64,000 nt of DNA from Tremella fuciformis (lineage: Eukaryota; Basidiomycota; Tremellomycetes; Tremellales; Tremellaceae): contig CP136490.1 of assembly GCA_032768795.1 (NCBI GenBank), positions 3,348,001 through 3,412,000 of the forward strand. The letters run 5' to 3'. The notes under the pieces are model-generated. The model was given only the letters and a program-made list of their open reading frames with translations. It had not been told where the DNA came from and searched no databases. This document shows, one piece after another, positions 47,515 to 58,540 of the stretch. Made by a program: the position numbers and the translations under genes. Numbering within the stretch: the stretch's first letter is position 1; the number at the start of each line of letters is the position of its first letter.

Positions 47515-49259
47515 TCAACCAGTGACGAACGTTCTTCCCCTTGCCCGCGCCAACGCCACCGACAAACTCGTCATCATCCACTCAAACGCGCTCTTCGTCA
47601 CTCCCCACGACTTCCACGACAGCAACTTTGCCTTCGTCTCACTCTCTAGGACCCCACCGGACGAGAAGATCAAGGGGAGGAAGGGCGTGTCGACAGCGTC
47701 CGCCGGGCGTGTCGGGAGAGCGTTGACCTTCCGCTTTGCCGCATGGGCCAAAACCCCCTGAATCCTGGCACGGGTCTCCGTCATGTGCGAGGGGTCGGGC
47801 CGGCGGGAGGCGTGCAGCTCCCGTTGGTGCGTGGGCGCCGCAAGGACGATGACCTTGACATCGTACTCCTCCGCCGCAAAGTCCGGGGAGCTGTCGCCCG
47901 TGTTGTCGACCCGGATGTCGTTGCGGCGGCGCGGTCCATTGAAGATGAAGGGCTCGATTGAGACGGAGAGGAAGGGGCCCGAGCGGAGCCCATCCGCAAG
48001 CCTGTGCTTGACAGACTCGTGTCGGGGGACGCGGAAATCGCTCCGGGCTGGGCAACACTCGTCGTGGCCGACGACGTTGGGTTGGGTGCAGGACTTGCAG
48101 GGCCCAGCCCGGCCTGGCATGAGCGTGCGGTAGGCCAAGTTGGCCTGGACGACTCGGTCGGTGAGCTGGAACCTCGCCGATGAGGGCAGAGTCTCCAGCC
48201 ACCGTCTCCCCAGCATGCTTGCCGCCTCGGCCAGTGCCACTCGCTCGTGCGTCTGCAGGGAGGTCATGAGGTCTTGCTGTTGTTGTTGGAAGACCTCCCT
48301 ACATAGCTCGCGCTGTGACGGGGCCGGGGCATCGGACATGAGTGCCGGGAAGAGTGGAGAGAGGACCTTGTCGGCCAGAGCGTCGGAGGCCTTGGCGGCG
48401 TGGGGCGAGCAGGTGAGGTGCGAGAGCAGACCAACGCCTCCGAGCGATGGGGGCAACGAGATGATAGCTCGGTCACGATCGCGGTCTGCGGATGGAAGAG
48501 GGCCGCGGATGCTGTCAAAAGCCTCCCACAGAAGGTCGTCGAGACGCCGCCAGTCGTCCTGGAGATCGCCGTTATCGTCTAGCGTGCGGATGAGATGGCG
48601 GAGCTTGTGCTGCGACGATCGGCGGAGGATGAGGAGGGCGTGCTGCTTTGGGAGGTGCTGCAGGTTGGCGAGCTGCGGCGCGAGGTCGGAGATGTGCTCG
48701 CGGAGGAAAGAGCTACGGGCCTCCTTGGAGCCAATACGGGTGCCCAGGATGTCGATGGGCTGGGTTTCGGTCGCCGCCTGCAGGCAGTGGACTCGGCACT
48801 TGGATGCGTTCAGGGTGAGGGGCGAGTCCTCGTCCTTGAAGAAGTCCAGAGACTTCTGCAAGTCCTTCGGGTCAGATGTGAGGATGAAGATGTCGTCGAG
48901 GTAGGCCAATACGAGGCACTGGGCACCGAGGAGGTCTTGAAGTCTCTCGACTAGGGGCCGGATGCCGATGGAGAAGAGGAGTGGACCCATTGGATCTCCC
49001 TGCCGGATCCCCTTGGCGGACGGAATCGTGACTGTTGTGCCGGCTGAGTGGACGTAGAGCAGTGACGGGTCGTTGTAGGACCATGAGGCGAGGCGGAGCA
49101 ATGAGAGGGCGTGGGCTTGTAGGGATGAGGCAAGGGCGGAGCGGGTGATGTCGTTGAATGCGTTGTTGGAGTCTAGGCTGATGAGGTGGGTGAAGTGGTG
49201 GAAGCCTGGGAGCTTGCGAACTGCCAATTTGACTGCGCGCGTGATCGGCTCTATACCCC
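47515..49259 (-). pseudogene. Non-LTR retrotransposon ORF2, C-terminal part
   Basis: Continuation of ORF2 after the insertion. It carries RT palm motifs (FTHLISLDSNNAFNDI; KGIRQGDPMGPLLFSIGI; catalytic CLVLAYLDDIFILTSD), thumb sequence, and a C-terminal Cys/His cluster CKSCTQPNVVGHDECC, followed by RRNDIRVDNTGD and EEYDVKVIVLAAP, which resemble the catalytic part of a restriction-like endonuclease. No internal stop interrupts this part. Counting from 58540 to 57115 plus 49259 to 47515 gives 3,171 nt, divisible by three (1,056 residues), so the only visible lesion in ORF2 is the insertion. The gene is inactivated by that insertion. Confidence 0.85.
49255..49259. repeat. Target-site duplication ACCCC, left copy
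   Basis: Five bases immediately before the TGTCAC end of the composite element. They are identical to 57110-57114 after its other end. Five-bp duplications are usual for Ty3-type integrases. Confidence 0.85.
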
Positions 49260-49978
49260 TGTCACGAATGACACCAAAGCAGCACCAAGACCGAGCAAGA
49301 CCGAGCCAAAGGAACGTGAGTCGAGCCCTCGTCAGCACTCGCCGAAGCTCGCCGTGACTCGTCAAAACCGGCCCACGTGAAATTACCGCATTCGTCGGAC
49401 AAAAGGATGCATCTCTCGCACAGCTAAGTCCCGTCGTCACCACAGCTCTCGTCGACAGCAAGGAACTCTTCGAGGCTCGCCGTGCTCGCCATGCTCGCCG
49501 CCGAAGAACAATAGGCCTCCTCGATGCTTACTCAGCGAGCTCGCCGGATGCGGCGAACTCGCCTAAGGGAAACGAGAGAACAATGAGCTCGACGTACATT
49601 GGGCAAAACCTTGTCGAGCTCGCAGAGACAGAGACGCAGAATCGACGGACGGGCTGTAGGATACATAAGGCTCGCAGAGCCCTTGTAGAACTCCAGTACT
49701 CTCGCAATTGAGTTGCATGGGACTACTCCCTCACTTACTCTCTCTCGCTCCGTCCCGCCGACAGCTGCTAAGGTCTAGCACTTGTCGGTCCGCCTTGTCG
49801 TGTCTCGCCTTGCCTAGCCAACCTCGGCTACCCTCGTCGACACTCGTTGAGACTCTACGAGCCCTCCGAGCCCTTGCCCTCGCCCTTCTCTCCTAGTCTC
49901 GCCCAGCCTCGCCGAAGTCGAAGAGTCTCGGTCACCCAGTGACGGGCCTTTGGACAGAGACAGAGAGGTAGCGTGACA
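49260..49978 (+). repeat. Complete 719-bp LTR (left)
   Basis: Starts TGTCACG and ends CGTGACA, perfect short inverted ends. The first 14 bases can fold (TGTCA-CGAA-TGACA). TATA-like tacataag lies at 49,662-49,669. The inferred transcript start (R) is at 49,695, 33 bp downstream, because that segment pairs with the primer site beyond the LTR. U3 is therefore about 435 bp and R-U5 about 284 bp. A long open frame crosses U3 but no protein was recognised. No second direct copy exists in the window. Confidence 0.85.
49662..49669 (+). promoter_or_regulatory. TATA-like box of the large LTR
   Basis: tacataag, 33 bp upstream of the inferred R start at 49,695. The solo LTR at 55.2-55.6 kb has a matching layout (catatagg, then 35 bp to a similar start). 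Confidence 0.6.
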
Positions 49979-49980
49979 GT

Positions 49981-49994
49981 ATTGCGAGAGTACT
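49981..49994 (+). promoter_or_regulatory. Self-priming primer-binding site
   Basis: attgcgagagtact is the exact reverse complement of 49,695-49,708 inside the LTR. It lies 2 nt after the LTR end and shows no TGG tRNA-type start. This is the arrangement known from Tf1/sushi-type elements, where the 5' end of the RNA folds back as the primer for reverse transcription. Confidence 0.8.
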
Positions 49995-50506
49995 CATACC
50001 GTCACTACCCGCCTAGCCTCTTCGAACCCTAGCCGTTCCCTCGCCTTATCCGCCATGTCTGGAATCGCTGGGCGACAGCTTCGTTCCGGTACTTGCCAAC
50101 CTGAGCGACAGCTCGGCGAGATCGACGAGCAGGGAGCGAATTCGCCTCCCCCTCCTCTCGAAGAAAACGAGCTCGAGATCAGCCTTGAGAATGCGCCGGA
50201 GCCTCCGGACGACCCTGCCGAAGACCCCGAGGCCTACGAGCGCTTCAAGGCCCGCTTCGCCCAGTGGAAGCTCCTTCGTCGAGCCTTCGAGGCCGGCCAG
50301 CGAGCGCAAGCTAGGGATCAGCCCGCGGTCTCGCCAAGCCCCGCCGCGTCTCACCTAGGCTCGACGAAAGAGCCAAAGATCAAGGAGCCAGACACCTTCT
50401 CTGGCACAAACCCGGCTGCATTGAAGAGCTTCCTTCTCCAATGCCGACTCATGTTTGAGCTCAACAGCTCTCGCTACTCTAGCGAGGACACCAAGGTTTT
50501 AGCCAT

Positions 50507-50511
50507 GGTGG
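50507..50511. repeat. Target-site duplication GGTGG, left copy
   Basis: Directly precedes the miniature LTR. The second copy is at 51,074-51,078. Confidence 0.85.
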
Positions 50512-50645
50512 TGTCAGGAAACTGACACGAGTCTAATATAAGCGGTGCGGATTCCTTAGAGTAAGGATCCGTTAACATACCTTTTGGTACAGTGTGAATG
50601 CACTGCAGGCTCTCTTATGACCGCTTACATAAGTCTGTTCTGACA
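50512..50645 (+). repeat. Left LTR of the miniature element
   Basis: TGTCAG...CTGACA ends. The first 16 bases form a perfect hairpin (TGTCAG-GAAA-CTGACA). TATA-like taatataa is at 50,534-50,541; the inferred R start at 50,562 is 28 bp downstream and sits in an imperfect palindrome (ggattcctta-gag-taaggatcc). Confidence 0.92.
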
Positions 50646-50647
50646 GA

Positions 50648-50660
50648 TAACGGATCCTTA
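50648..50660 (+). promoter_or_regulatory. Self-priming site of the miniature element
   Basis: taacggatcctta is the exact reverse complement of LTR positions 50,562-50,574 and starts 3 nt after the LTR end. It has the same geometry as in the large element. Confidence 0.82.
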
Positions 50661-50939
50661 ACGGGTTGTGTGTTCAAATACCGGTGTGGGCCGGGCATCA
50701 GCTATTTGCACCAACTTGGAAATGCCACGTCATGCGGGCAGGGTCCCAGGGGGACTATCAGGGTTCAATTGTGCCTGTTATGGACAATTTGAAATGAGTC
50801 GATGCAATCGGAGATTGATCGATACAATTCGTTACAATTAGTAACGAATAGTGAGAAATAGAACCCAAATGACGTCAAGTGTTTCGGTGTGGTTGGACTC
50901 GATAAGTTCAGAGACTGAACTTGCCCAAGGAGGGTCGAG

Positions 50940-51073
50940 TGTCAGGAAACTGACACGAGTCTAATATAAGCGGTGCGGATTCCTTAGAGTAAGGATCCGT
51001 TAACATACCTTTTGGTACAGTGTGAATGCACTGCAGGCTCTCTTATGACCGCTTACATAAGTCTGTTCTGACA
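50940..51073 (+). repeat. Right LTR of the miniature element
   Basis: Identical over all 134 bp to the left LTR by eye. Followed directly by GGTGG (51,074-51,078) and the resumed gag frame. Confidence 0.92.
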
Positions 51074-51763
51074 GGTGGCCTACCTTCGGGGACCCGCCTT
51101 GGCTTGCGTCCAACCGCTCTTGTCGCAGGAGCCGAGAGCCGCCGAGCTCTCGTCGGTCGGGGCATTTACTGCCTACCTGCGAGCTAGCTTCGGCGACCCC
51201 GACGAGCGTGGCACAGCCAAACGCCAGCTCCGCGAACTTCGCCAGGACAAGGACGCTGCGTCTTACTTCGCCCGCATCCGAGAGCTCGCCACGATCGCCG
51301 GGTATACCGACCAGGTAGCTATCGTCGACATTGCCGTCGCCGGCCTGCGGGGCAACCTCAAGGACGAACTCGCCAAACGCGGCGACTTCGACACGCTCGC
51401 CGAACTCGTCGGGTTCGTCGTTCCTCTCGATAACCGTCTCCGACGCAGGTCCGAAGAACGCAAGAAGGAAGAGACCCACTCTCCTCCTCCGCAGACCTAC
51501 GCCGGGACTCTCGCCAAGCCTCGCCAAGAAGGTCGGCTCGACCCAAAACAGCCTGAGCACCGGCCTTCTCTTCTACCTCCTCGCCCGCAGCCTGCCTTCG
51601 TTGCAACTCGCCAAGATCTTCGTCGCGACTCGCCGCGTTCCACCGAGCCCTCGCCTCAAGAGGGCCGGCGGCCTTACGGACCGCTGTCCGAGGCCGAGAA
51701 AGATCGACGTCGCCGAGCCGGAACTTGTATTATTTGCGACAAGCCAGGCCACTTCGCCTCTGA

Positions 51764-54700
51764 CTGCCCCTCTCGATCCAACAAGCCGTGAGAGCCAGTC
51801 ATCGCCAAGCCCGAGGCCCCAAAAGCCTAGGGGACGCTTCTCGCGGCGAAGCCTCTCCCCCTATCCCCGTCCTCGCCGCAACTCGCCAAGTCTCGCCGAT
51901 CCCTGTTGATGTTAGCCAGCCAGAAAGTGAGCATGCATTGAGTGCTGCTTACTCTGGCCTGCCGGCACCAACTAACCTTGAAACTAACCAACCTCTCGCC
52001 GAAGGACGAGTAGGTGGTTACCCTGCCAAAATCCTCGTCGATTCTGGCGCCTCCCACAACTACATCTCCCGTCCCTTCGCCGAGAGCCACCGACTCTTGG
52101 CAATCCCTCGCCAAACCCCGTCGGATCTTCAGCTCTTCGACGGAACCCTCGCTCAAGATGGCCCGCTCACGCATTACGTCCGAGAGGATGTAGAGCTGGG
52201 CCCCCTCTCTGGAACCACTCGCCTCGAGATCACCAAGCTCGAGGGAGCGGACGTCGTGCTCGGCTATTCCTGGCTATGCAGTCGCCGAGCCAAAATCGAC
52301 TTCGGCAAAAGAACGATAGTCGATCCTCGATCCAAAGGTTGGGCAGCGAAGCCTAGCCAACCTCAAGGTTGGGCAGAAGAGCCCGCCTTCCTTGCCGAAC
52401 CCAGTCCCGAACCGGATGAGCTCCACGCCAGAGCCTCCGTCCTGCCCATTGTGGCCGAGCCGTCGCAGAGCTTGCCGAGTGTCGGCGAGGCTGAAGGTCA
52501 GCAAGACCTTGCTCCAGCCCTTCCTAGTGCCGCGAGCGACTCGCCTATGCCGCCGAAGGTCGCCGCGCCCTCGCCCACGTCCCAGTCCTCGCCCAAGCCC
52601 AAGCCCCCTCGGTCCCAGGCCAATTTGGTCGCCCGGCGGGCTTCCCTCGCCCCGTCTCGTTCGAAGTCGTCGAGATCCGGCGATTCCTCGACGAAACGAT
52701 CCAGAAGAGCCAAGCTAGCTAAGCTTCGCAAAGAAATCGGGGAGCACATTGGACGGGTGTCTAAGCCCAACTCGATCGCGCTCCCACCTGTTTTGAAATG
52801 GCCGGGGCTCGTCGAAGAGGAACCGATGCGCCTGTGCGCTGTATCCGACGCTCGAGCAGTGTCGGAGAGGTTCGACGACTTCGACGAGCTCGCCACCCTG
52901 CCTTCGTTTACCTCGGCGTACGAGTTCACGCCGGAAGAGAAGGATCTTGTGATGAGCTGCGTTCCGCCGCAGTATCACGAGTTCCTCGAGATCTTCCATC
53001 CTCGCCAAGGTACGGAGACCCTCGCTCCCCACCGCCCATACGACATGCGCATCGATCTGCGACCGGATCATGCGCTGCGAGTCGCCCCGTTGTATGAGGT
53101 GTCACAGGAGCAAAAGTCGGCGATGCGAGCCATTATCGACCGAGAGCTCGCCGCAGGTCGGATAAGAGATAGCAACTCGCCGTACGGCTCGCCGACGTTC
53201 TGCGTGAAGAAGCAAGACCTTGTGAATTGGCGAATGGTCGTCGACTATCGCCATCTCAACGCAGCAACGATCCCCGACGCCTACCCTGTTCCGCTGATCT
53301 CTCAGGTCACGGCGAGCCTCGCCGGGTCTGAGTGGTTTAGCTCATTTGACCTAGTCTCGGCGTATCAGTTGCTAAGGATTGCCGAGGGTTTCGAGAAGTA
53401 TACTGCCTTCCGAACTCCCTTCGGCATGTTCGAGTCATTGGTGGTGAGAGATGGCTTGCGGAACGCACCCGCTGTCTTTCAACATTTCCTGAACGAGTTA
53501 TTCGCCGACCTCGCCGAGTGGGTATGTGTCTACATCGATGACATCATCATCCACGCCAAAACACTCGACGAGCTTCGCCGAGTCACAAGGATTGTCATGG
53601 AGAGGATCCGTGGCACCTCGCTCTTCTGCAAGGCCTCGAAATGCCACTTCGAGCAACGCTCAGTCAAGTTCCTTGGGTTCATCGTTTCCGGCAAGGGCGT
53701 CGAGGCCGACGCGTCCTACGTGCAGGGCGTCGTTGACTATCCCCCTCCCCGCGATGTTCGCCAAGTTCGACGATTCCTCGGCATGGCTAGCTACTATCGG
53801 CGATTTGTACCGAACTTCGCCAAAGTAGCTGGGCCTCTTCACAGCCTCACCAGGAAGGACGTCAAGTTCACGTGGGGCGAAGGCCAGCAAGCAGCCTTCA
53901 ACGAGCTCAAGTCGAGGTTGCAGCGTTCGCCGATCCTCGCCTTCTTCGATCCAACTCGGGATGCGATCCTACAGACCGACGCATCCGCCTATGGATGGGG
54001 CTTCGTTGTCTCGCAGAAGGACGCCGAGGACAACGAGCACCCCGTCGCTATCGAGTCAGGCGCGTTCACCGAGGCCGAGTTGAACTACACCACCACGGAA
54101 AAGGAGTTCCTCGCCGTGGTGCACGCGTTTCGCCGAAGGCGACATCTTCTCGCCCAAGTTCATACGACGGTGATCACTGATCATTTGAACCTCACCTACT
54201 GGATGGAACCTCAGCAACTCAATCCAAGGCAAGCTAGATGGGTTGAGATCCTCGCCGCTTTTGACTTCAAAATCGTCTACAGGCCCGGCAAGCTCGCCGA
54301 GCTCCCCGACGCTCTCTCCCGCAATCCTTCCTACTCCCCAGGCTCGCTCGTCGAGCAACCTCAGAACTTCCTCCAAGCCCTTCCCTCACTCGACGAGTCC
54401 GCTGAGGTCTCGTCGAATCTCGCCTACCTCCTCCGCGCCGTCCGAGTACGCGCGCCTGCTTCGCCTGGAGCAACGACGCTCGCCGAGCGTCTCCTCGAGG
54501 ACCCAGACATTCGGCCAATCCTAGGCCATCTCGCCCAAGGGTCTCAGACCCTTTCTAGCACTCATCCAGAGCTGGAAGCTCTGCGGAAGCGATTGGGGTT
54601 GTCGAGGCTCGAAGAGTCTCGGCGAGCGGTGCGGCCTGACGACGGTCGTCAGGGAGACGGTGGCCAAATTGTCGCTGTTGTAAAATTCCTTGACGACGGG

Positions 54701-54835
54701 GTGACAACGACTGTGTATAAGAGAGTGAGTGAGTTGGCCGAAGATCCCCATGATTCCTTGAATCATTCTCTACTCTCCTTCTCTCACCCTCACTTCACCC
54801 TCAACTCGCCGAACAACAACCAGCATCGCCGATAA
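51764..54835 (+). CDS. Retrotransposon Pol fragment: protease, reverse transcriptase, RNase H
   Basis: Open frame in -1 relative to gag. It opens at 51,764 after a stop at 51,761, overlaps gag by 28 nt and has no early ATG, so it needs a -1 frameshift or similar event. Domains: aspartic protease (ILVDSGASHNYISRPFA) near 52.05 kb; RT with FSSFDLVSAYQLL and the catalytic CVYIDDIIIHAKT near 53.53 kb; RNase H with ILQTDASAYGWGFVVSQKD, TEKEFLAVVHAF and ITDHLNLTYW near 54.0-54.2 kb; tether to PGKLAELPDALSR. The integrase zinc finger and DDE core that should follow are absent. From about 54.6 kb the frame runs through unrelated sequence and ends at TAA 54835. Confidence 0.88.
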   Translation: MPLSIQQAVRASHRQARGPKSLGDASRGEASPPIPVLAATRQVSPIPVDVSQPESEHALSAAYSGLPAPTNLETNQPLAEGRVGGYPAKILVDSGASHNYISRPFAESHRLLAIPRQTPSDLQLFDGTLAQDGPLTHYVREDVELGPLSGTTRLEITKLEGADVVLGYSWLCSRRAKIDFGKRTIVDPRSKGWAAKPSQPQGWAEEPAFLAEPSPEPDELHARASVLPIVAEPSQSLPSVGEAEGQQDLAPALPSAASDSPMPPKVAAPSPTSQSSPKPKPPRSQANLVARRASLAPSRSKSSRSGDSSTKRSRRAKLAKLRKEIGEHIGRVSKPNSIALPPVLKWPGLVEEEPMRLCAVSDARAVSERFDDFDELATLPSFTSAYEFTPEEKDLVMSCVPPQYHEFLEIFHPRQGTETLAPHRPYDMRIDLRPDHALRVAPLYEVSQEQKSAMRAIIDRELAAGRIRDSNSPYGSPTFCVKKQDLVNWRMVVDYRHLNAATIPDAYPVPLISQVTASLAGSEWFSSFDLVSAYQLLRIAEGFEKYTAFRTPFGMFESLVVRDGLRNAPAVFQHFLNELFADLAEWVCVYIDDIIIHAKTLDELRRVTRIVMERIRGTSLFCKASKCHFEQRSVKFLGFIVSGKGVEADASYVQGVVDYPPPRDVRQVRRFLGMASYYRRFVPNFAKVAGPLHSLTRKDVKFTWGEGQQAAFNELKSRLQRSPILAFFDPTRDAILQTDASAYGWGFVVSQKDAEDNEHPVAIESGAFTEAELNYTTTEKEFLAVVHAFRRRRHLLAQVHTTVITDHLNLTYWMEPQQLNPRQARWVEILAAFDFKIVYRPGKLAELPDALSRNPSYSPGSLVEQPQNFLQALPSLDESAEVSSNLAYLLRAVRVRAPASPGATTLAERLLEDPDIRPILGHLAQGSQTLSSTHPELEALRKRLGLSRLEESRRAVRPDDGRQGDGGQIVAVVKFLDDGVTTTVYKRVSELAEDPHDSLNHSLLSFSHPHFTLNSPNNNQHRR
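54713..54834 (+). promoter_or_regulatory. Putative own promoter of the accessory gene
   Basis: gtgtataagaga at 54,713-54,724, a pyrimidine-rich stretch (ctctccttctctcaccctca) about 50 bp later, and a caacaaccagcatc leader before the ATG form a canonical fungal core promoter. It lies within the end of the pol frame, suggesting that the gene arrived with its upstream region. Confidence 0.5.
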
Positions 54836-55197
54836 TGGTCCGGACTCGAGACGACAGTGAGTGTTATCGACGAAGTTCGGCGAGGCTCGTCGAGCGGTGG
54901 CTGACGTTGCAGTTGCTCGCGAGGCCGCAGCACGGGCCGCAGCGGGCTCGAACAACTCGGCAGGTGTCGAGGCGGCCGCGGACGCCGGCGCTGGCGTCAG
55001 CGAGGCGACTGCCGCGATCGTTGCCGCGTCGGACGAGGCGGCGAGGCTCGGCGAGGCCGACGTCGAGAACGACGAGGAGGGCGGCGACGCTGACGAGGCA
55101 GGGCGAGTCGACGCTCAGGTCGACGAGGGGGGGGAGGAGGATGAGGAGGACGACGAGGAGGGTGACGAGGAGGGTGCCGATGACAAGGCCACCATTG

Positions 55198-55202
55198 CGG
55201 AG
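55198..55202. repeat. Target-site duplication CGGAG, left copy
   Basis: Directly precedes the solo LTR start TGTCACG. The second copy is at 55,638-55,642. Confidence 0.82.
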
Positions 55203-55637
55203 TGTCACGACGGCCACGCCCTCGACGACCTACGCACGTGACCGACACCTCTCACGTGGCCGACACGTGACCTACCTCGGGCTGGAGAACCTCGACGAGG
55301 GAGTAGACGTTGGATGAACGCGCGACGACGGGAAGCAGGCGCAGAGTCATATAGGATGCCCCGGGCGCCCGTCGTAGTTCTTCAGCACTCTCTGATTGAG
55401 TCTCATGGATCACCATTGACGATCTCACTCTCTCCGTGGCACGCAGCGTGGCTGAGTCGCACTCACGCTGTATCCTCGACGACCTTGTTACCTCGACGAC
55501 CTTGTAACCTCGACGAGGATCCAACCTCGACGAGGATCCTACCTCGACATCCTCGTTTCTACCCCTTTATCCTTTATTCTTGACTCTGATATTGTGCGAG
55601 AGGGCCTCTGCCAACGGGAGAGCGCAGCATCGTGACA
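55203..55637 (+). repeat. 435-bp solo LTR of a related family
   Basis: Begins TGTCACG and ends CGTGACA, flanked by CGGAG on both sides. The TATA-to-R region resembles the large LTR: catatagg, then tagttcttcagcactctctg and attgagt...catgg, against acataagg, tagaactccagtactctcg and attgagt...catgg. No internal domain remains, so the parent element was probably lost by LTR-LTR recombination. Removing it with one CGGAG restores the accessory reading frame. Confidence 0.85.
55474..55555 (+). repeat. About 17-bp tandem repeat inside the solo LTR
   Basis: Four to five degenerate units of acctcgacgaccttgt / acctcgacgaggatcc type in the U5-side half. They have diverged into two sub-types arranged in pairs. 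Confidence 0.75.
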
Positions 55638-55642
55638 CGGAG
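55638..55642. repeat. Target-site duplication CGGAG, right copy
   Basis: Directly follows the solo LTR end CGTGACA. Confidence 0.82.
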
Positions 55643-56259
55643 CTTTGTGAGCAGGTGGCGGCGCTCGAGGAGGCGGCGCGTCGTAGGAGTCGCTCTCGTC
55701 AGGAGGAGGAGGATGGTGAGCTTGTCTCGTTGGGCTCGGCGAGCCTAGCTGATCAGCAGACTATGATGAAGTGGCGTCCCCTCGTCGGAAGAGGAACGAG
55801 ACTCGAAGAGAGTCTTTCATCCGGGTGAGTAATCTTTGGCGAGTCTCGGCGAGCTTGGCTGACGTCGCTAGTCTCGGTATCCCGACGTCGAGCAGCCAGC
55901 GGAGCCCTGCGAGAGATGCCACAAGGATGGCTTTACATGCTTGGTGTTGCCAGGCCTTGTAAAGTGTCGCACGTGCACTTCGGGCCCCTGCAGCTTCAAA
56001 TCCGAGCGTGAGCGAGGATCGGCGAGGGCTAACGAGGGCGGCGGGCTTGCCGAGCTCGCGCCGAGTGAGCTCCCGGCGATTTTTGCTCTGGTTGGCTACA
56101 TTCGTGAAGCAACCGAGCCGGGTCTCCGCTCGTTCCTGATTGGCGAGCTTCGGCGTCGGACTGGGCTGGGCCCAGAGGCTTTTGGTCTGCCGGCAGACAC
56201 CAACCCGGAGGCAGGTCCTTCAGGCTCGTCGTAGTCCTTGTATGTAGCCTAGTTGTAGG

Positions 56260-56749
56260 TCATGCAGCTCTCTGCCTTGCCGAGACTCGACGATTCTCGG
56301 CGAGCCTCGGCTTTCCGGGGTTCTTCTCGTGAAATTCCTTCATGAGCTCTTGACATCCGTCCAAGTTCCCTGCAGTCTCCCAAGTTGTCGACCCGTCCGT
56401 GTGTTCATAGCCTTCCCAGGCGACAAGGTACTCAACTCGGCGACCTCGACGACGCGCGTCGAGGATCGCCGCGACTTCGTAAGAGTCGCCGCGGTCTGGG
56501 TCAGACTCGACAGGCGGCGGCGGGTCGTAGCTCTGACCTTCGAACGTCGGCGGGTGGAACGGCTTGATGAGCTTGACGTTGAACGTGTCGTGGACGTTCA
56601 GCGAGTCTGGCAAGGCGAGCCGAAAGGCTTGGGGACCTGCAGTCCCAACGATCTGATAGGGTCCTCCATGGCGTACGTCGAGTTTCTTCGAGGGTCGGCG
56701 AGTCTTGATGTTTCTCAGCGAAAGCATAACGAGGTCTCCGATCTTGAAT
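56260..56749 (-). pseudogene. Integrase C-terminus with chromodomain (inverted fragment)
   Basis: Minus-strand fragment that begins at the junction with the inverted LTR piece: FKIGDLVMLSLRNIKTRRPS, KKLDVRHGGPYQIVG (GPY/F module), FNVKLIKPFHPP, then a chromodomain (SYEVAAILDARRRGRRVEYL, VAWEGYEHTDGSTTWETAGN) and stop at 56260. This is the 3' end of a chromovirus pol, the part missing from the plus-strand pol, but in the opposite orientation and without the catalytic core. A stop (TAA) lies 18 codons upstream inside the LTR piece, so it is not expressed as a normal protein. It is tail-to-tail with the accessory gene, 25 bp apart. Confidence 0.87.
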
Positions 56750-57109
56750 GCTCGACAAGGTTTTGCCCAATGTACGTCGAGCTCATTGTTCTCTCGTTTC
56801 CCTTAGGCGAGTTCGCCGCATCCGGCGAGCTCGCTGAGTAAGCATCGAGGAGGCCTATTGTTCTTCGGCGGCGAGCATGGCGAGCACGGCGAGCCTCGAA
56901 GAGTTCCTTGCTGTCGACGAGAGCTGTGGTGACGACGGGACTTAGCTGTGCGAGAGATGCATCCTTTTGTCCGACAAATGCGGTAATTTCACGTGGGCCG
57001 GTTTTGACGAGTCGCGGCGAGCTTCGGCGAGTGCCGACGAGGGCTCGACTCACGTTCCTTTGGCTCGGTCTTGCTCGGTCTTGGTGCTGCTTTGGTGTCA
57101 TTCGTGACA
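56750..57109 (-). repeat. Inverted 360-bp copy of the LTR U3 (right terminus)
   Basis: Reverse complement of 49,260-49,619, ending TTCGTGACA. By eye three single-base differences are seen, all transitions (about 99% identity). Identity stops abruptly at gagc, after which the integrase fragment begins. It forms the right end of the composite. Confidence 0.9.
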
Positions 57110-57114
57110 ACCCC
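57110..57114. repeat. Target-site duplication ACCCC, right copy
   Basis: Follows GTGACA at 57,109 and matches 49,255-49,259. Confidence 0.85.
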
Positions 57115-58540
57115 CTTGGGTGCCGACGCCAAACTGGTTGGGGGAGAGGAAGTCTGACTTGAAGTTGGCGATGAAGAGAGATTTCATGGCTAGGCGGTAG
57201 AAGATCTCCCCCACCGCGATTGGGCGGATGCCAGGGACTGCGTCTGGCGGAGCATCGGGGGCCAGGGGCTTGAGGAGAGGTGTGAGGCGTGCGGCGCACA
57301 GGAGGTCTCGTCCCGGAGCTGTGCCGGAGCCCATTTCTGCGGTGAGGTTGGTGAGAAAGGCGACGAACCCAGGGGCGGTGGTGGCCTGGGCGAGGAGCTT
57401 GACTGTCCAGCCTGAAGGGCCGGGAGACGTGCCGTTGTCCATGGAGCGGAGGGCGGAGAGGATGTCGCTGGACTCGGGCAATTCGGGAAATGGGGTGGAC
57501 GCGTGTAGGGGCATCGAGAAGGGATTGTCCTCGCCTGGCGGGTGCTTCAGGCGAAGGGTATCGATCGTGGCGGGGTTAAGATCGGCGATGCCGGTGGCGT
57601 CGTTGAGCGCGCGTTCTGCCTTGCTGATGAAGCCCTCCTCAACCAGCGCCTTGGCGCGGCGGACTTTGCTGCCGGGCTCGGTCCCCTGCAACGGCAGCTC
57701 GGGTATGCTGACATCCGGGTAGGCCTTGAGCCTAGCAAAGACTGCGTCGTGCCCCTGCTGGATAGCGGGCACCAGGCCCACCTTAATGACGGCTAGGATG
57801 TGGAAGAGGGCGCGTCTTGAGGGGCAGTTGGCGTAGGCGATCGCGAGTCGGTCGACACAGGCTGCGAGTGGCGCGACGAGCTTGGGGTGGAGGTGCTTGT
57901 TGATACCTGGGAGAGGGAGGAGGTCTGCCAGGGTCAGGTGATCCGCGTAGAAGTCATTATGGACCGGACCGTGAGCGGTCTCGGAAGGTGGCGGCATGAG
58001 CGTGGCGGGAGGTACTGGCTGCGAGGACGAGGGGCGGGCAGGAGACGCGCTTGCGGTGTGGGACGACGCTCTGAGGGGCGAGGAGAATGCTGGCGCGGAG
58101 GAGGTCTTGCGCAAGGGCGAGGAGGCGGGCGATTGGGACGTGACTGTCCCAGGAAGGCCACGGCCCTTCCTGTCGCGAACAGTGATGCCTGCAAGACGTG
58201 TCCGCATTTCCTCGGACTGGCCCCGACAGAAGGTTGACTTGTGGACTGACATGGCCTGGCCGCCCGGCCTGGTAACGGCGCCACAGAGATGACAAACATC
58301 GACCGTGCCAGGGGCAAAGTCGGACTGGAGAAAGGGGAATGCGGCGTGAGCTTTCCGAAGGTGGCCGTAGATCTCGCCTCGTTGGCTGGGGCAAATTGGG
58401 CAGGAGGCGGACTGAGAACTGGTTTCCGGGCTGGGCGAGGGCGAGGGAGGGGGCGGCGGGCGGTCCGGAGTGGCCTGGGCATTCTCAGGCGCGTTGCGAC
58501 TGCCGGAATGCGGCTCGCTGGTCTGGAAGGGGTCGTCCAT
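57110..58540 (-). pseudogene. Non-LTR retrotransposon ORF2, N-terminal part
   Basis: ATG at 58540 (MDDPFQTSEPHSGSRNAPEN). Contains two Cys/His fingers (CPICPSQRGEIYGHLRKAH and CHLCGAVTRPGGQAMSVHKS), a Ser/Pro-rich linker, a helical domain, and the first RT motifs (LRSMDNGTSPGPSGWTVKLL; GIRPIAVGEIFYRLAMKSLF; NQFGVGTQGG), where it is cut at 57,110 by the composite element. It overlaps the end of ORF1 by 56 bp. Confidence 0.85.

Follow-up and report, generated by a model that had tools for sequence, protein, structure and literature searches.

Composite long terminal repeat (LTR) retrotransposons that formed before integration have been described in the Triticeae, rice, and maize, where four cases are recognized by flanking 5-bp duplications together with near-identical outer LTRs (Sabot and Schulman 2007, PMC1950507). 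These elements are rare, and abnormal template switching has been proposed for their formation; their two complete cores are separated by a third, internal LTR, which is explained by a switch between R regions, and inverted ends are not mentioned. Here we analyze a 7,850-bp composite element of the basidiomycete Tremella fuciformis, found in a window of 64,000 nucleotides (assembly GCA_032768795.1, contig CP136490.1, C1:3348001–3412000), in the context of the 28.1-Mb genome surveyed (11 contigs, of which C1 carries the window). Like the cereal elements, it has a flanking duplication and similar outer LTRs. Unlike them, it consists of two partial, opposed halves with no internal LTR of its own family, it has inverted U3 ends and a deleted integrase core, and its joins are nearly without homology. 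The composite is thus a variant of the known template-switch insertions, the new part being the head-to-head form with inverted U3 ends. Literature searches of limited wording, which covered mostly titles and abstract openings and few subscription papers, found no head-to-head, inverted-LTR or two-U3 insertion.

Self-priming Ty3/gypsy elements of the Tf1/Tj1 type have a primer-binding site (PBS) complementary to the 5' end of their own mRNA (PMC4600332). The PBS of the LTR family studied here likewise complements the predicted mRNA 5' end, and its integrase C-terminus carries a Tf2-1-like SH3 domain and a chromodomain; unlike in Tf1/Tj1, self-priming is predicted from sequence, the family carries an extra antisense open reading frame (ORF), and the composite is defective. 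DIRS elements combine inverted LTRs with a tyrosine recombinase (PMC5633606). The LTRs of the composite are similarly opposed around a coding part, but the element is of the integrase type and has a 5-bp duplication, and direct LTRs bound the ordinary copy of its family. No tyrosine recombinase domain was found in the five composite pieces scanned with Pfam, whereas the integrase C-terminus is present, and a DIRS-like element is ruled out by the integrase-type domains and the direct LTRs of the ordinary copy. Finally, autointegration gives deletion or inversion circles, and the aberrant DNA can carry inverted LTRs (PMC2644782). In that process the ends are turned inward in circles, whereas those of the composite stayed free and were integrated with a duplication; autointegration is ruled out since the ends would be consumed.

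Insertion of the composite as a single molecule

The composite (49260–57109 of the window) opens and closes with the same 360-bp LTR stretch in opposed orientations. Its two arms, 49260–49619 and 56750–57109, are exactly 360 nt each and agree at 357/360 positions, with borders that read ...ACCCC/TGTCACG on the left and CGTGACA/ACCCC... on the right. Excision of the composite together with one ACCCC copy yields a host ORF of 3,171 nt, including the stop, of the long interspersed nuclear element (LINE) type; when both ACCCC copies are kept, the ORF is not restored. The rejoined site aligns with a LINE copy that has no insertion, C5:1486044, over 945 columns with 748 identities and zero gaps. A more distant LINE copy, C7:1040812, also crosses the site without an insertion (71%, 9 gaps in 828 columns), and there is no gap in the 41 columns around the insertion site.

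The full-length LTR of the family is 719 bp long and ends in TGTCAC...GTGACA. Among the 29 full-length copies with both edges read, 22 are solo LTRs, defined by the adjoining presence of neither a polypurine tract (PPT) nor a PBS. Exact 5-bp duplications flank 17 of these 22, in 17 different sequences, while of the other five, two show a single mismatch and three at least two. In a chance control of non-self flank pairs, exact matches were 0/462 and matches with at most one mismatch 9/462. The LTR at C5:186476 (flanks TTGAG/TTATG) was excluded as a 3' LTR on a loose polypurine motif that does not adjoin it; counted as solo, it would bring the exact duplications to 17/23. A 5-bp duplication is the norm of this LTR family, and there is no common target. 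LTR copies also differ at U3 positions 134, 212, and 237 by C to T in a TCG context, which may reflect repeat-induced mutation or methylation damage.

The empty site and the ACCCC duplication, of the 5-bp length usual for the family, indicate that the composite came by one integration event. Together with the exact LTR termini and the order of the segments, they support one molecule with two U3-type ends, integrated in one event, as the earlier note had proposed from the inverted ends, the ACCCC on both sides, and the restoration of ORF2 on removal. Each of these observations is confirmed, with the addition of the gapless 945-column match to the empty site.

Organization of the composite

The ordinary copy of the family at C1:5389511–5405184 (minus strand) served as the reference for the anatomy of the composite (Table 1). 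It has direct LTRs that differ at 4/719 sites, flanks TCGAC/TCGAG with one mismatch, a PBS after the 5' LTR, and a putative PPT, TTGGGCAGAG, ahead of the 3' LTR. The PBS, which is the same in the composite and in the ordinary copy, is complementary over 14 nt to LTR positions 436–449, downstream of a TATA-like stretch; none of 2000 shuffled controls reached 14 and one reached 13. The start of R is placed by this complement and the upstream TATA-like stretch, the transcription start being predicted only.

When read against the ordinary copy, the composite runs from the 5' LTR through gag, protease, reverse transcriptase, and RNase H, followed by an inverted region with the integrase C-terminus and chromodomain and then by inverted U3 1–360. 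The left half, from 49260 to 54597–54600, is 98.3–99.8% identical to the ordinary copy in the parts compared, and its pol part stops ahead of the integrase zinc-binding domain. The inverted part is 95.5% and 99.55% identical on the two sides of a solo LTR and reaches to 90 bp before the 3' LTR of the ordinary copy. The right arm is the first half of the 719-bp LTR only and lies wholly inside the predicted U3. Three segments are absent from the composite: 939 bp carrying the integrase zinc-binding and core domains (Integrase_H2C2 and rve), both present in the ordinary copy; the last 90 bp before the 3' LTR, including the PPT; and LTR 361–719. Pfam identified gag, zf-CCHC, RVP_2, RVT_1, and RNase H on the plus strand of the composite pieces and SH3_Tf2-1 and Chromo on the minus strand. 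The family follows the domain order of Ty3/gypsy chromoviruses of the Tf1/Tf2 type, that is, gag, protease, reverse transcriptase, RNase H, and integrase with a C-terminal chromodomain.

Table 1. Features of the composite element and its insertion site. Positions are those of the window.
Feature	Position	Strand	Basis
Host non-LTR retrotransposon ORF2, 3' part (RVT_1)	47515–49259	-	Pfam and ORF joining
Target-site duplication ACCCC, left copy	49255–49259		Flank comparison
Complete 5' LTR, 719 bp, TGTCAC...GTGACA; predicted U3 ~1–435, R from ~436	49260–49978	+	Full-length copies elsewhere
Predicted self-priming PBS, 14 nt, reverse complement of LTR 436–449	49981–49994	+	Complementarity
gag region (Retrotrans_gag, zinc knuckle), split by a small LTR element	50055–51788	+	Pfam
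TRIM-like element, 562 bp, two identical 134-bp LTRs, duplication GGTGG	50512–51073		Absent from ordinary copy
pol part: aspartyl protease, reverse transcriptase, RNase H	51764–54597	+	Pfam and alignment up to C1:5392993
Join J1, tail to tail, 1 bp common to the partners	54597		Comparison with ordinary copy
Inverted 3' part of the element (C1:5390320–5392053), later solo LTR inside	54597–56749	-	Alignment
Solo LTR of sister family, 435 bp, duplication CGGAG	55203–55637	+	Absent from ordinary copy
Integrase C-terminal SH3 (Tf2-1-like) and chromodomain	56263–56748	-	Pfam PF24626 (7.3e-18), PF00385 (4e-13)
Join J2, integrase C-terminal region to U3 position 360, 0 bp common	56749–56750		Comparison with ordinary copy
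Inverted U3 1–360, second U3-type end	56750–57109	-	Alignment
Target-site duplication ACCCC, right copy	57110–57114		Flank comparison
Host ORF2, 5' part	57110–58540	-	First ATG of open frame; no Pfam match

The antisense ORF of the family lies between the integrase and the 3' LTR, convergent to pol. In the composite it occupies 54834–56234 on the plus strand, with an intron predicted by eye, and is broken by the solo LTR. Its C-terminal 120 residues, which have no Pfam match, are open in the ordinary C1 copy and in two C11 copies; its N-terminal part lies outside the pieces scanned.

Probable common source of the two arms

Both arms carry an A at U3 position 107. In the alignment of hits covering LTR 60–150, which comprises 55 rows, four of them being the two arms listed twice each, G occupies this position in 50 of the 51 other rows, and the lone A belongs to a copy only 66% identical. 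A 20-mer around the position was found with at most one mismatch at 11 places, and the two with A are the composite arms; the degenerate letter of this 20-mer lies one base off the variant, so that copies with G count as one mismatch and those with further mismatches are unlisted. The three differences between the arms each fall on one arm (left arm: 75A, 96T; right arm: 134T), and later mutation is their simpler, though not their sole, reading. On balance, these positions suggest a single parental copy as the source of both ends, which would be expected of one complementary DNA (cDNA) or of two RNAs from one locus.

Search for recurrent copies

The earlier note had raised the possibility that such composites recur as a mobile design, for which one would expect several copies that share the joins but differ in their flanks. 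Two queries of 601 bases, one across each join, were compared with this one genome. With both queries there are places that match one side of the join or the other, but only the composite matches across: for J2 among the best 40 of 116 candidates, in which a full-length match would rank top, and for J1 among 10/10 candidates. A census of U3 termini within three mismatches of a terminal 21-mer gave 88 termini, with the outer flank read for 72/88. Inverted pairs no more than 30 kb apart number 19, each with its two outer flanks read, and 18 of the 19 have no matching flanks, the composite pair being the exception. The absence of recurrence is incomplete to the extent that the census is bound to 21-mer termini in one genome. 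The termini at C4:440685 and C4:452312, considered as an inverted pair, were rejected, each being a solo LTR with its own duplication. A mobile family with inverted ends is thus not shown in this genome.

A sister LTR family, which starts with TGTCACGACGGCC, has 256 termini genome-wide within three mismatches, compared with 3 for a reversed control pattern. Several of its exact termini form direct pairs ~7.6 kb apart, and it is perhaps a young, active relative. Three of its inverted pairs within 10 kb (C4:94188/97661, C5:1007538/1011151, and C11:333489/341566), chosen by eye among the 100 of 256 termini listed, have no matching flanks; at least three wider pairs there lie outside this check. 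Next to one sister-family terminus, at C4:94168–94187, telomere-like repeats (AGGGGGTTAGGGGGTTACAG) occur within the contig. The nearest thing to a second head-to-head case is C4:694265–695504, in which an LTR directly abuts an inverted LTR (547–1); its left end is lost to another repeat, so the duplication is unreadable, and it is probably a nested insertion.

Proposed formation of the two-U3 molecule

We favor, with a probability of roughly 0.57, an aberrant two-U3 cDNA of a self-priming Ty3/gypsy chromovirus that arose by strand or template switching and integrated once into the LINE ORF2. In this model, the plus strand would be primed at the polypurine tract and hence start exactly at U3 position 1, copy U3 to position 360, switch to the integrase C-terminal region, and continue to 90 bp before the 3' LTR. 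A strand switch near the RNase H/integrase boundary onto genomic RNA (or the plus strand) would then let ordinary minus-strand synthesis proceed across gag and the 5' LTR to complete the molecule, leaving natural U3 ends at both termini. Such switching events would take place within the particle, and a single ordinary integrase reaction would insert the product into the LINE ORF2. Because plus-strand synthesis starts there, the model accounts for a right arm that begins at U3 position 1 with nothing but predicted U3 in it; the completeness of the left half from U3 inward also follows from switching. As the composite has no integrase zinc-binding and core domains, the integrase would have been made from an RNA whose pol was intact, which may have been the template RNA.

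Several points weigh against this model. The formation route is unobserved, joins with 0–1 bp of homology fit cDNA end joining equally well, and both joins are known from the assembled sequence alone. The segment 52046–54067, in which spacing makes the ordinary copy ~7.4 kb longer, lies outside the comparison with that copy. The letters that distinguish the arms are not all private, with 75A in 2/51, 96T in 1/51, and 134T in 11/51 rows outside the window, which leaves room for two slightly different parents. No second two-U3 insertion was found in the U3-terminus census of the genome.

The strongest rival, which we regard as possible but clearly less probable, starts from two or three linear pieces of cDNA: one truncated at its 3' end, a 3' fragment, and a fragment of U3. 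Host end joining would have linked them head to head ahead of integration, with integrase then using the two U3 ends. The absence of homology at J2 and the single base pair at J1 are in favor of this rival, and both the product and its integration would look the same as under switching. However, three pieces must then be connected at two joins, and one of these pieces is a U3 fragment of 360 bp whose start coincides exactly with position 1; in addition, the common variant at position 107 suggests one source copy for both U3 pieces. The aberrant head-to-head cDNA put forward in the earlier note is supported, while the choice between template switching and the joining of pieces is beyond what the sequence can settle. 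As a more doubtful extension, the two-U3 cDNA might reflect a reproducible side pathway of self-priming chromoviruses, in which a plus-strand primer product primes a second minus strand, so that particles make two-U3 cDNAs and integrase accepts them in vivo. In vitro, integrase is able to join two ends that are identical.

LTR elements are commonly rearranged after insertion, and an ordinary copy could have been altered in place by microhomology-mediated replication or repair, the 7-bp inverted repeat TGTCACG/CGTGACA at the LTR ends mediating a switch exactly at the terminus. The plainest form of this alternative, in which the 3' part of an ordinary element is simply inverted, is excluded by the segment order: it gives the inverted LTR before the inverted 3' region, the reverse of what is observed. 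The alternative also needs a junction exactly at the LTR/ACCCC border among a total of three, together with the loss of 359 bp of LTR with the duplication untouched, and we consider it unlikely. An assembly error is less probable still; although repeats are involved and the locus is known from the assembly alone, a false join would not give rise to the exact termini or the 5-bp duplication, nor to an empty site that aligns without gaps. Least credible is a second, reversed element inserted exactly in the ACCCC of a first and fused with it by a deletion, which would account for the outer ACCCC copies and for U3 at each edge but demands the same 5 bp twice, very unlikely when 17 exact duplications have 17 sequences, a separate internal deletion for J2, and the position-107 variant in both arms.

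Later insertions and age

Two inner insertions are absent from the ordinary copy (Table 1). The TRIM-like (terminal-repeat retrotransposon in miniature) element has ~294 bp between its LTRs, and its ~99% identical copies at C2:2210206–2210768, C4:2239659–2240221, and C4:427868–428404 (537 bp) suggest recent activity. Both insertions could have occurred after the integration of the composite or, less simply, have been inherited from the parent copy. For the solo LTR, an insertion and then recombination between its LTRs must have taken place, which makes a very recent origin of the composite unlikely; two such clean inner insertions point to its having been resident for some time.

Implications

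The composite looks like a real, one-off fossil of faulty copying and not a new kind of mobile element; it is a single defective copy with no evident function of its own. With its gapless empty site, it provides natural evidence that integrase can complete concerted integration using two U3 ends, and that reverse transcription, or cDNA joining, can yield a head-to-head cDNA. It also supplies a search rule, an inverted U3 pair with a matching duplication, that could be used to measure how often such errors occur. If the side pathway were true, head-to-head fossils should be findable in other genomes through inverted U3 pairs with matching duplications.

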